From contig JADZCJ010000063.1 of assembly GCA_020851635.1 (NCBI GenBank), positions 1 to 64,000 on the forward strand: a stretch of DNA of 64,000 nucleotides, written 5' to 3'. Origin of the DNA: Anaerolineae bacterium. Its GTDB lineage: Bacteria; Chloroflexota; Anaerolineae; UBA4142; SHND01. The stretch's first letter is position 1. Each line of letters begins with the position of its first letter. The notes below the pieces were generated by a model. It had not been told where the DNA came from. It made no database searches and saw nothing but the letters and a program-made list of their open reading frames with translations. Both the position numbers and the translations under genes were made by a program. Positions 1-4,511 of the stretch are shown here, one piece after another.

Positions 1-73
1 CGGGTTGGGTCAAATTGGGATCGTGTGCGGCGGCAACGACGCGTTCCCGCAGGTCAGTGGAATAAGCACTCAT
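1..73 (-). CDS. IS630-type transposase, N-terminal fragment at window edge
   Basis: Reading leftward from the ATG at 73, 24 codons are visible before the window ends. They begin MSAYSTDLRERVVAAA, which resembles the opening of the helix-turn-helix domain of IS630/Tc1-family transposases (usually xxYSxDLRxRVV). The family moves DNA by a DDE cut-and-paste reaction into TA targets. No DDE residues can be seen here because the rest lies outside the window. It diverges from the ecfT operon, with about 100 bp between the two starts. Terminal inverted repeats cannot be assigned with only one end visible. Confidence 0.65.
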   Translation of the reverse strand, partial: MSAYSTDLRERVVAAAHDPNLTQP

Positions 74-124
74 AGATCTCAATGTACCACAATTATCCCT
101 TAAACGAAACAGGAATTCGCTCTA

Positions 125-175: not shown

Positions 176-961
176 ATGTCTCAGACCTTTTACCTGGACC
201 GGGCGACCGTATGGCACGCTCTGCACCCCCTCACCAAGCTGGCGGTCGCACTGGCGCTCATCGTTGCCGCATTTAGTGTGCGCTGGTTTTTTTTCTCTAG
301 CGCACTCTATGTGCTGATTATTTTCCCTATCGCGGTGTGGGCTCGAATCTGGCGCGAGCTCTTGCGCACGACCTTTTTTGTCATCCTGCCCATCGCCATT
401 TCTCTTGTTCTGGTGCAGGGGTTTTTCTTTCCCGGAGCGCGGGATGTGATTTTCCAAATCGGACCTCTGGCGCTCAAGCGCGAGGGGCTCGAGTTTGCGT
501 TTGTCACCGCAACGCGTTTGTTTGTCGTTGCGGGTGCGGGTCTTTTGGTCGTCTACTGTACCCATCCCGTGGATTTGGCGTTAGCGTTGGTGCAGATGGG
601 CGCGCCGTATCCCTTTGCCTATATAGTCGTCTCTGCGATTCAACTCTTGCCTGAAATGCAGACGCGTGCAGAGAGCATCCTGAACGCGCAGCAGGCGCGC
701 GGTCTGGAGACGACGGGCAGCTGGCGCGTGCGTCTTGCCGCGTTTGTGCCGATCATTTCTCCTTTGGTATATGGCGCACTGGCAAACGTGCAAGAACGCG
801 CCCTGGCGCTCGATGCGCGAGCATTCCGCGCCCCGCTGCGAAAAACCAGCTGGCGCGTCCTGCGCGACTCGCAACTCCAACGCATCGTTCGCGTTCTGCT
901 CGTGGTCTCGTCCATACTCCTCGCGCTCTATTCCATCGCGACGCTCTATGTGACCCTTTGA
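176..961 (+). CDS. ecfT: ECF transporter transmembrane (T) component
   Basis: This 261-residue protein matches the CbiQ/EcfT family of integral membrane scaffolds. In energy-coupling-factor vitamin or metal importers they join two cytoplasmic ATPases to a substrate-binding S subunit. Hydrophobic segments lie at about residues 23-55, 64-86, 108-128, 142-160 and 236-260. The two short Ala-Arg coupling motifs that contact the ATPases are at 174-176 (ARG) and 214-216 (ARA, with the final Gly replaced). The start is the ATG directly after the perfect hairpin, and no Shine-Dalgarno is seen. The stop overlaps the next start as TGATG, so translation is probably coupled to the first ATPase gene. No S component is encoded nearby, so the substrate is unknown; a group II (shared) ECF module is plausible. 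Confidence 0.88.
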   Translation: MSQTFYLDRATVWHALHPLTKLAVALALIVAAFSVRWFFFSSALYVLIIFPIAVWARIWRELLRTTFFVILPIAISLVLVQGFFFPGARDVIFQIGPLALKREGLEFAFVTATRLFVVAGAGLLVVYCTHPVDLALALVQMGAPYPFAYIVVSAIQLLPEMQTRAESILNAQQARGLETTGSWRVRLAAFVPIISPLVYGALANVQERALALDARAFRAPLRKTSWRVLRDSQLQRIVRVLLVVSSILLALYSIATLYVTL

Positions 962-1827
962 TGTCCATTCTCACCGTCGAGAGTCTCTCGTTCAAATATC
1001 TCGAATCCTCCACGCTCGCGCTCAAGCAAGTTTCGGTCGCGTTCGAGCCGGGCAGCGTGACCGCCATCGTCGGCGCAAATGGCGCGGCCAAGTCCACGCT
1101 TTGCTATGCGCTCGCGGGATTCATTCCCCATTTCTTTAAAGGAGAGATGCGCGGTTCTGTGCATGTTAACGGCGCGGATACCCGAGAAACGCCCCTTGCC
1201 AAACTGGTCACGCAGGCGGGAATGGTGTTTCAAAATCCATTCAACCAGATTTCGGGCGCAAAACTCTCGGTATTCGAGGAAGTGGCGTTCGGTCTGGAAA
1301 ATCTGGGCGTCCCGCACGATGAAATCAAGGCGCGCGTTGACCGCGCGCTCGACCTGTTTGGACTAGAGGGCGCGTCCGATCAATCGCCGTTCGCCCTGTC
1401 CGGTGGACAGCAGCAGCGCCTTGCGCTTGCCTCGATTTTTGTCATGGACCCGCCGATCATGGTTCTCGATGAACCGACTTCGCAGCTCGACCCCGAGGGC
1501 ACGCGCGAGGTCATGGGGACGATTCAAAAGCTCGCGACGCAGGGACGCACGATCGTGATGGTCGAGCACAAGCTGGAGTGGATTGCCCGGCTTGCCTCTC
1601 GCGTTCTGGTATTGGATCATGGCGCGCTGGTGGCGGACGGCGAATCTGGAGCTATTCTCAGCCGCGCCCAAGAATGGGGTCTCAACGAAACATACTATGC
1701 GCGCGCGGCACGACTTGCGCAAGAGCGCGGGCTTGTATCTGCGGCTGGCTCTTTGCCTCAGACCCTCGAACAAGCTACTCGGTTCTTTGGTAATCGTCAT
1801 GTTGTGGGAACCGAAAACCGAAATTAA
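961..1827 (+). CDS. ECF transporter ATPase EcfA1-type, with altered Walker A
   Basis: An ABC ATPase of 288 residues, the first of two in the module. It has the ABC signature LSGGQ (146-150), Walker B with catalytic Glu (MVLDEPT, 167-173), a Q-loop (VFQNP, about 89-93) and the switch His203 (VEHK). The Walker A reads GANGAAKST (38-46). The Gly that normally precedes the catalytic Lys is Ala43, codon GCC at 1087-1089, one base away from GGC. This Gly is nearly invariant, so nucleotide binding at this site may be weakened. The ATG at 961 overlaps the ecfT stop. The reading frame continues past the TAA at 1825-1827 straight into the second ATPase. Confidence 0.9.
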   Translation: MSILTVESLSFKYLESSTLALKQVSVAFEPGSVTAIVGANGAAKSTLCYALAGFIPHFFKGEMRGSVHVNGADTRETPLAKLVTQAGMVFQNPFNQISGAKLSVFEEVAFGLENLGVPHDEIKARVDRALDLFGLEGASDQSPFALSGGQQQRLALASIFVMDPPIMVLDEPTSQLDPEGTREVMGTIQKLATQGRTIVMVEHKLEWIARLASRVLVLDHGALVADGESGAILSRAQEWGLNETYYARAARLAQERGLVSAAGSLPQTLEQATRFFGNRHVVGTENRN

Positions 1828-1917
1828 AAAATCGAAAATCAGGAATCGCCAATCATCAAGCCGGAATCTGCAATCTCACTCTCTGCTCTGCATTTCACAT
1901 ATCCAAACGGTGTCGAG

Positions 1918-2676
1918 GTGCTGCGCGGCGTCTCGCTGGAAATAGCCGCGGGTTCGCAGATTGCTCTCCTGGGGCAGAATGGCGCGGGCAAGACCACACT
2001 GGTCAAGCATTTCAACGGACTCTTGAAACCCACTTCCGGCGTCGCTCGCGTTGGCGATTGGGATACACGCGAACATACGATTGCCCAACTGGCGCGCCGC
2101 GTCGGTTTTGTCTTTCAAAATCCCGACGACCAGTTGTTCAAAACACGCGTGCGCGACGAAGTCGCGTTCGGTCCCATGAACCTCGACCTCGGTGCCGGGG
2201 AGGTCGAAACGCGCGTCAAGCGCGCGCTAGCGTTGTGTGGACTTGAAGAATGGCGGGATGCCCACCCTTATGATCTGGCGCCCTGGCAGCGGCGGTGGGT
2301 GGCAATTGCTTCGGTGGTTGCGATGCAGACTCCTATCGTTGTGCTGGACGAGCCGACGACGGGACAGGATGCGGCGGGGCTGGCGCGTCTCTCGGCGCTG
2401 CTTGCGGAATGGAAACATTTGGGCGTGACGGTGATCGCTGTCACCCACGCCATTGATTTTGCCGCCGAGCAGTTTGGCGAATTTGTCATCATGGCGCAGG
2501 GGCAGATCATTGCGCGCGGCGGAGCAGAGGTCCTCAAGACCGAGTCGGTCCGCGCTCGCGCGGCGCTTGATGCGCCGCAATTGGTGTGGCTGGCGCAAGC
2601 TCTCGGCTGGGACGAGTCTCCCGTCAGCCCCGATGCGTTTTGTGACCTTCTGGCAGCGCGCTCCCAACCCCATTGA
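1918..2676 (+). CDS. ECF transporter ATPase EcfA2-type; true start unclear, degenerate signature
   Basis: The second ABC ATPase of the ECF module; the GTG at 1918 gives 252 residues. Walker A is canonical (GQNGAGKTT, 19-27 in this numbering). Walker B is VVLDEPTTGQD and the switch His is in AVTHA. The signature motif is degenerate: LAPWQ (120-124) where LSGGQ is expected. The GTG start misses the first beta-strand of the fold. Upstream in the same frame the codons read SALHFTYPNGVEV (1882-1920), which is normal N-terminal ATPase sequence, but no ATG, GTG or TTG exists there before the ecfA1 stop at 1825. Possibilities are a CTG start (1888), an ATC start, readthrough of the TAA, or a sequencing error that splits a YkoD-like fusion. 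Confidence 0.85.
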   Translation: MLRGVSLEIAAGSQIALLGQNGAGKTTLVKHFNGLLKPTSGVARVGDWDTREHTIAQLARRVGFVFQNPDDQLFKTRVRDEVAFGPMNLDLGAGEVETRVKRALALCGLEEWRDAHPYDLAPWQRRWVAIASVVAMQTPIVVLDEPTTGQDAAGLARLSALLAEWKHLGVTVIAVTHAIDFAAEQFGEFVIMAQGQIIARGGAEVLKTESVRARAALDAPQLVWLAQALGWDESPVSPDAFCDLLAARSQPH

Positions 2677-2765
2677 CAGCAATGTCTCATGGAGATTAGA
2701 ATGAATTGCGCGTTTCAAACTCCTGCATGCATTCCTTTTATGCTGACCCCAAAGGAGGTTTCTTT

Positions 2766-4511
2766 GTGACACGATGGCTATTGCGCGGCGCCGTGTTATC
2801 GGTCACCCTGCTGGGAGCCATTGCGGTTCTCTCGAGCGTGACCTACGCCGACCCGCCAATTCGTTCGGCGCGTCTCGGTCGAGACGCGGGCCGCGAATTC
2901 AATAATGATTCCCCGCAGCTTCAAACTGACAAGCCGGGTTACACCCTGCATTACAGTTTTTCGTCCGACCCAAAAGACAATACCTATGTCGCGTCATTTG
3001 CGCCGGATGTGCCCGAAATCTATGCCTGGGCGACCATTGTGGAGGAAAATGGCGCACAGCAAAAACAGTTTGAGGTCGAAACTCTATTTATCGCGCCCGA
3101 CGGGACGCCGATTGACTCGGAGTGGTATGGCGAGGATACGGGCACCGTGAGCACCTATCCCGTGGATGCTGACACGTTCAGCGACGAGAATGTCGCGCGC
3201 CGTTTTATCAGGGTGGCGGGCACCTCAAACGCCGGGTTGGCTGGACAATGGACGGTGAACTTTAGCGTTGGCGGTAAACTCATTTCCTCGGGTAATTTCT
3301 CGCTCGCGGACGCAGGCGACATTGAGCAGTCCGATACCGCATCTAACGCACAGCAAGCGCTCGAGGAACGCGGCTATGAGGTCATTGAATTCACCGAATT
3401 GGAAGGCAAAAGCGGCAACCTCTTTGCCTTTGTGATCATGCGCCCCGTCAGCCAGGACCTGTACAGTTCTGAAACTAGCCAACAAATTGTGGATGGGCTT
3501 GCCGCACTTCGCCAAACCTTTCCCGATTCCGGCACGCTCTATACCTTTTTGCGCTTTGACGAACGATACGAAATTGCGTATTGGGCGGATGCGCTGGATG
3601 TGGACGCGTATCTTCAAGACAATGACTTTGGCGCGTTTGCCCAGGTCGTCAGCGTAGATGTTTATGATAACGAGACCGGCGAGTATTTGGGCAGCGCGTC
3701 CAAAGATTTTATCAACAAGAATTTTGGCGCGGGCACATACCGCAGTCCGGCAAACCCGCCGCTCTCCAAAAACAGCAGCAGTGTCGGCTCGGTTCGTGTC
3801 ACTGTTTCTCCGTCGGAACTGCCGGCGGACGGCGCGAGCAAGGCGATTGTCTCGGTCGAGGTTTTTAGCAAGCGAAACCTGCCGATCCAGGACGCCGAGA
3901 TCGAGTTCGAAATCAGCGGTTCGGGCGAGGGAACGGTGCGCCCCCGCGTGACCTCGACCGATGAGAACGGTCAGGCGGACGCCGTGTTCACCGCCGGGCG
4001 CACAAATGGGTTGGTGACAATTACCGCCAAGGTGGGCGGCATTTCCGGGGCAGGGACGATAACCCTCGGCACGGGGAGCGCGGACCAGCCCGCCGACAAT
4101 GTCATTGCCATGTTGAGCGCGCAGGGCTATCAAGCAACGCGCGTTGGGTTCCTCGACCAGGCGAAAAGCCAGATCGGCGTGCTTGTGGACCTGGGCGATT
4201 CCTACAATATCAATCAAGTGACGGGTCCCATCGTCTATGGCATGACCGCTCTGCGGATGAACTATCCGGACGCGGCGACGCTGGTCGTGATTGTGCCCTT
4301 CAAGGAAAATCTGCTGATGTTCCCGGCTTCTGCCAGCGCCTATGACAGCTATTACCAGGCGATTGGCGCGGCGAAATCGGACGATGACAAAAAGGCAGCT
4401 TCGTCCGACTTTTTGAACAAGGTCTTTGCGAACGCGCAGTATGTGGACCGCAACGGCAACAAGCTCTCGACATTCAAGGACTTTTACAACAAGAATTTCA
4501 TGGGCGGATGA
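2766..4511 (+). CDS. secreted protein with duplicated domain and a Big_1 (bacterial Ig-like) domain
   Basis: The GTG at 2766 is chosen because AAAGGAGG lies at 2751-2758 and a clear Sec signal peptide follows (TRWLLRG, then a hydrophobic stretch to about residue 30 ending VTYADPP). The product is 581 residues. A beta-rich N-terminal part (about 45-185) is followed by an alpha/beta unit (190-327), a Big_1/invasin-type Ig-like domain (about 341-435: VTVSPSELPADG, then AEIEFEISGSG, then STDENGQADAVF) and a second copy of the alpha/beta unit (439-581). Both copies share a GY near the start, ALR-x-x-[FY]PD-x-x-TL in the middle and an [F]xNKxF end. Function is unknown; an exported surface or adhesion role is inferred. 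It sits 90 nt before the DUF350 gene, probably in one transcript. Confidence 0.8.
   Translation: MTRWLLRGAVLSVTLLGAIAVLSSVTYADPPIRSARLGRDAGREFNNDSPQLQTDKPGYTLHYSFSSDPKDNTYVASFAPDVPEIYAWATIVEENGAQQKQFEVETLFIAPDGTPIDSEWYGEDTGTVSTYPVDADTFSDENVARRFIRVAGTSNAGLAGQWTVNFSVGGKLISSGNFSLADAGDIEQSDTASNAQQALEERGYEVIEFTELEGKSGNLFAFVIMRPVSQDLYSSETSQQIVDGLAALRQTFPDSGTLYTFLRFDERYEIAYWADALDVDAYLQDNDFGAFAQVVSVDVYDNETGEYLGSASKDFINKNFGAGTYRSPANPPLSKNSSSVGSVRVTVSPSELPADGASKAIVSVEVFSKRNLPIQDAEIEFEISGSGEGTVRPRVTSTDENGQADAVFTAGRTNGLVTITAKVGGISGAGTITLGTGSADQPADNVIAMLSAQGYQATRVGFLDQAKSQIGVLVDLGDSYNINQVTGPIVYGMTALRMNYPDAATLVVIVPFKENLLMFPASASAYDSYYQAIGAAKSDDDKKAASSDFLNKVFANAQYVDRNGNKLSTFKDFYNKNFMGG

Follow-up and report, generated by a model that had tools for sequence, protein, structure and literature searches.

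An ECF transporter motor with one consensus and one probably degenerate ATP site in an Anaerolineae genome and its relatives

Two adjoining ATPase genes (A1 and A2; positions 961-2676) in a 64,000-nucleotide stretch of contig JADZCJ010000063.1 from an Anaerolineae bacterium (the window) encode an asymmetric pair in which the motifs of one composite ATP site are preserved and those of the other are altered in both subunits. We consider it probable that these ATPases and the T component encoded directly upstream form a dedicated ECF motor for a CD3073-type S component, probably transporting nucleosides, and that this motor has one consensus and one ancestrally degenerate site with ATP hydrolysis at the consensus site only. 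We also lean, if only slightly, towards a broader reading in which a widespread class of ECF transporters (the CD3073 type and relatives, in bacteria and archaea) would hydrolyze ATP at a single site. In this class, an ancestral loss of the A2 signature would have been followed by repeated erosion of the Walker A, switch His, or catalytic Glu of A1 with the opposite site remaining intact, and a mirrored version would have arisen separately in other ECF modules of Chloroflexota.

The relevant features at the start of the window are as follows:

1-124, minus strand: end of an IS630-type element (transposase start and terminal repeat GAGCGAATTCC), with the family assigned by eye.
125-171, no strand: perfect 22-bp hairpin with a 3-nt loop (-33 kcal/mol, z = -10.7).
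176-961, plus strand: EcfT, a CbiQ-family T component of 261 aa (Pfam CbiQ, E 2.7e-18, 66.9 bits with a cut-off of 25).
961-1827, plus strand: A1, the first ECF ATPase, 288 aa (Pfam ABC_tran and orthologues).
1072-1098, plus strand: Walker A of A1, GANGAAKST, in which Ala43 is private and all relatives have Gly.
1396-1410, plus strand: signature of A1, LSGGQ, canonical and part of the consensus site (read from the sequence).
1828-2676, plus strand: A2, the second ECF ATPase, an open frame of 282 codons (ORF and Pfam ABC_tran).
1972-1998, plus strand: Walker A of A2, GQNGAGKTT, canonical and part of the consensus site (read from the sequence).
2275-2289, plus strand: signature of A2, LAPWQ, degenerate here and likewise in all orthologues (orthologue alignment).
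2449-2451, plus strand: residue after the switch His of A2, Ala as a private change, with Asp in 17/17 relatives compared.

A CbiQ-family T component with two adjoining ECF-type ABC ATPases (Pfam ABC_tran, E 9e-27 for A1 and 3e-25 for A2) fits a dedicated, group I type ECF system, and the NCBIfam matches agree in kind while staying below their cut-offs, i.e., the family cut-off of ECF_T_CbiQ for EcfT (E 5e-15) and the equivalog cut-offs of ECF_ATPase_1/2 as the best matches of A1 and A2. The heterodimeric ABC exporter/CFTR class was rejected for this locus: neither ATPase is fused to an exporter-fold TMD, and each is encoded as a soluble chain of its own next to a CbiQ-type T component. Directly downstream of A2 lies a gene for a probable secreted protein (2706-4511), a placement that is conserved in three genomes of the same genus.

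Each nucleotide-binding site of an ABC transporter combines the Walker A, Walker B, and A-, Q-, and H-loops of one ATPase with the signature motif of its partner (PMC7756269). An earlier note on this DNA had read GANGAAKST in A1 and LAPWQ in A2 and placed both defects in the same composite site, formed by the A1 core and the A2 signature. Both readings and their coordinates are correct, and the other site is indeed complete (Walker A, Walker B, Q-loop, H-loop, and signature) with the exception of the Ala that follows the switch His of A2. Codon 43 of A1 is GCC (Ala; 1087-1089) where GGC (Gly) would be expected. The remaining core motifs are present in both subunits, i.e., the Q-loops (VFQNP), Walker B (LDEP) with its Glu, including the catalytic Glu171 of A1, and the switch His, and the D-loop of A2 reads TGQD.

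Alignment to orthologues indicates that the A2 signature change is old and conserved and that the A1 Walker A change is private. The three genomes of the same genus that carry the module have GANGAGKST or GANGAGKTT as the Walker A of A1 and LAPWQ, LQLWQ, or LPLWQ as the signature of A2, and more distant orthologues show a variety of other degenerate signatures at this place (LSPTW, LSAPQ, LLPSQ, LPLSV, LPYSM, LPYSV, or LSLSE). In all 21 members of the subfamily, which includes Fusobacteriota, Bacillota, Actinomycetota, Pseudomonadota, and Chloroflexota, the A2 signature is without Ser-Gly-Gly, whereas the A1 signature stays LSGG[QE] and A2 retains its Walker A, Glu, and His. Chance does not account for the signature change, which recurs in all orthologues, and neither does decay because LAPWQ is also found in an intact relative (L002). 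Some relatives retain partial A2 signatures that possibly still work (LTKGE or LGKGQ), of which the LTKGE type belongs to other subfamilies.

We scored 119 pairs for core defects in the Walker A, Glu, or His and, separately, for their signatures. Similarity to A2 supplied 29 of these pairs, a public-genome scan another 61, and a survey that started from the T component the remaining 29. Coincidences of core and signature defects fell within a single composite site in 46 cases and in opposite sites in none, with counts that are not independent given the shared descent of the pairs, so that a binomial p-value cannot be taken at face value. In the 83 pairs with A1-A2 gene order, the signature is non-canonical in 76 A2 subunits and in a single A1, and the A1 core is lost in 34 (affecting Walker A residues in 15, the switch His in 23, and the catalytic Glu in 4). 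The A2 core is lost in 0/83, a conservation that is inflated because the public-genome scan picked loci by the Walker A and Walker B patterns of A2. However, the 29 pairs found by similarity to A2 are free of this bias and show 16 losses of the A1 core versus 0 of the A2 core. A tree of the 83 pairs that leaves out the motif columns shows at least 21 changes in the state of the A1 core. A test on the tree for correlation between changes in the A2 signature and those in the A1 core had low power, with few signature changes to draw on. The survey anchored on CbiQ had been meant as an ATPase-independent sample and recovered mostly other ECF families, some of them mirrored; its pairs support a one-site rule without telling much about the CD3073-type subfamily.

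The layout of one good and one bad site is a family trait, founded on the signature of A2 and on a core of A1 that has eroded repeatedly in relatives, and the recurrence of erosion in the same pocket across many phyla suggests that these importers run on one ATP site. The catalytic Glu, which is kept in A1 of 79/83 pairs, counts against a reading with only one hydrolyzing site.

Mirrored ECF pairs are found in several genomes of Chloroflexota (L181, L183, L190, L192, L203, L204, L210, and L214). There, the signature of the first ATPase is non-canonical and its D-loop altered, while the second ATPase carries a changed Walker A and/or lacks the switch His; e.g., in L181, L183, L192, L203, and L204, the first ATPase has LSVGQ or LSQGQ and its partner, which lacks the switch His, has GPTQAGKST or GPTRAGKST. 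The degenerate site is thus again one composite site, but with the order of the subunits swapped. The Anaerolineae genome studied here has a second T component of its own (G000:C115:19500-20976), which is neighbored by an ATPase with the signature LSVGQ.

The operon looks damaged in this particular genome. In relatives of the same genus, the S-component gene stands in the place of the IS630-type end, and its stop codon overlaps or abuts the start of the T gene. Here, the S gene is found on another contig (C144:132-728), and the S and T contigs end in opposite ends of one IS630-type element (C144:1-131 and 1-124 of the window) with the repeat GAGCGAATTCC at a TA. We infer that the two contigs are joined across this element. 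Five other contigs of the genome carry right ends identical to the one at 1-124. The 22-bp hairpin, which is not repeated elsewhere in the genome, ends 4 nt upstream of the ecfT ATG. Moreover, the A2 codon aligned with the start codon of relatives is TCT, and the frame contains no ATG, GTG, or TTG before 1918, a position that is itself downstream of the A-loop (FTYPNG).

It is quite possible that the entire module has become a pseudogene that is decaying in this genome and that its private changes are products of this decay, as could be argued from the insertion between S and T, the strong hairpin in front of T, the missing start of A2, and the changes at two positions that are invariant in 17 relatives (A1 Gly43 and the Asp that follows the A2 switch His). 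However, EcfT, A1, and A2 are free of internal stops and frameshifts, and the private changes are no more numerous than in several other aligned rows and unusual only in their position. The dN/dS between this copy and its relatives is ca. 0.11-0.25, in line with purifying selection, and is not raised in the lineage of this genome, with a dS near saturation that limits the test. Any decay would have to be recent given the lack of internal stops or frameshifts and the low dN/dS, and LAPWQ, being common to the intact relative L002, would not be part of it.

The change of Gly43 in A1 stands apart from the family pattern. Among ca. 240 aligned ECF-type domains, the Gly preceding the Walker A Lys is altered in this A1 alone, and it is intact in 20/20 other ABC ATPases of the same genome, a sample of top-scoring domains that is biased to canonical ones. 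Other changes of the A1 Walker A in the family (GSNEAGKST, GKNDSGKST, and GRVGSGRST), which come with a degenerate A2 signature, hit the Gly at the fourth position or the Lys but never the Gly before the Lys. One of these, from an archaeal metagenome-assembled genome (L065; GRVGSGRST), has the same Lys to Arg exchange as ABCG5/G8 and a degenerate A2 signature reading MNLND. We take Gly43 of A1 to correspond to the position of Gly17 in the P-loop of RhoA. RhoA G17A serves as a nucleotide-free mutant (e.g., PMC5358333) and, by analogy across P-loop families, Gly43Ala likely impairs nucleotide binding and would further damage a site that is already off the catalytic path.

Since the operon looks damaged, Gly43Ala is probably an error, drift, or early decay of the present copy and, being private, it is unfit as evidence for the one-site layout of the family. 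We regard a sequencing or assembly error of one base (GGC to GCC) specifically as rather unlikely. It would account for a single-base change that is absent from all relatives in a draft assembly of 144 contigs, and the missing start of A2 close to a run of six A (1826-1831) would fit a second such error, but the position lies ca. 1 kb inside a contig of 120 kb and the rest of A1 shows no sign of poor quality.

A2 continues in frame after the TAA of A1, and the pair could therefore be modeled with AlphaFold2 as a single read-through chain (pLDDT 91, pTM 0.87). A Foldseek search aligned the full length of this model to the closed, fused NBD pair of ATP-bound DppABCD (TM 0.75/0.83), a match of the global fold that is consistent with a head-to-tail dimer of A1 and A2. 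In the mechanism that we propose, A1 and A2 would close around nucleotide like the ATPases of other ECF transporters, but productive hydrolysis would occur solely at the consensus site composed of the A2 Walker A, Walker B, Q-loop, and H-loop and the LSGGQ of A1. The degenerate site, with the A1 core facing an A2 signature devoid of Ser-Gly-Gly, would serve as a structural hinge with a loose hold on ATP, if any, since the A2 loop could not clamp the gamma-phosphate. A single hydrolysis event would then reset the module and free the S component.

The A2 loop could instead be an alternative functional signature that enables ATP hydrolysis at both sites, as A1 retains its catalytic Glu and switch His here and in most CD3073-type relatives and partial signatures such as LTKGE exist in other subfamilies. 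This seems improbable to us because the Ser-Gly-Gly triplet, which contacts the gamma-phosphate, is absent in 21/21 members and the core losses (34/83 pairs) are confined to the site of the A1 core. Even more doubtful is that the Walker A and signature changes of this pair co-evolved, despite their shared composite site and the family members with an altered A1 Walker A and a degenerate A2 signature, since the closest orthologues all combine an altered signature with a normal Walker A and the Gly before the Lys is never altered in the family. The earlier note had proposed both this pairing of Ala43 with LAPWQ and the layout of one consensus and one degenerate site. The pairing is largely refuted by the orthologue alignment, in which the degenerate A2 signature comes with a normal A1 Walker A, while the layout is borne out by relatives in which degenerate motifs are restricted to this site. 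Normal motifs in orthologues, which the note would have counted against itself, are thus found for the Walker A but not for the signature.

Regarding the substrate of this probable one-site motor, S components from operons of this type have their best match in NCBIfam CD3073 (NF045596) with 116-132 bits, below the equivalog cut-off of 180. In relatives, the S gene is found beside genes encoding a nucleoside hydrolase (IU_nuc_hydro), a PNP/UDP phosphorylase, or a PfkB-family kinase, neighbors that were not seen in the genus of the genome studied here. From this gene context in relatives, the transporter probably takes up nucleosides.

Searches of the open-access literature, which covers few subscription journals, turned up no report of an ECF transporter with a degenerate ATP site, and this absence is weak evidence. 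If our reading is true, the consensus/degenerate layout known mainly from exporters and a few importers (e.g., RbsA) would extend to ECF importers. Models of the toppling of the S component and of its expulsion use both ATP sites, and a natural one-site series would make it possible to compare natural proteins rather than mutants for the number of ATP per transport cycle and could show which site drives resetting.

Solved ECF structures have LSGGQ motifs and Mg-ATP engaged at both sites in the closed state (PMC4820897, PMC10368641). Group II ECF transporters (EcfA/EcfA' of ECF-FolT2) resemble the present system in having an S component, a T component, and two ATPases, with A1 and A2 homologous to EcfA1/EcfA2 and CbiO, but their two sites are complete while one site of the present pair lacks its signature. 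The CD3073 family (NF045596) is the closest named relative on the side of the S components, all of which score below its equivalog cut-off. Among importers, B. subtilis RbsA and NupO have fused NBDs, and changes in their Walker A and signature motifs led to one site being considered degenerate (PMC11466899); unlike the present system, they are not ECF transporters but are classed there as type II importers, and their defects lie in the second Walker A with loss of the Lys (PMC11466899). The degenerate-site exporters and channels share the combination of a consensus composite site with a degenerate one (PMC7756269), including ABCG5/G8 and Pdr5 in which the Walker A and the signature of one site are both altered (PMC7756269). 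However, they have another fold and have usually lost the catalytic Glu of the degenerate site, described as a hallmark of such exporter sites (PMC7544095), whereas this Glu is kept in the present A1 and lost in only 4/83 pairs.
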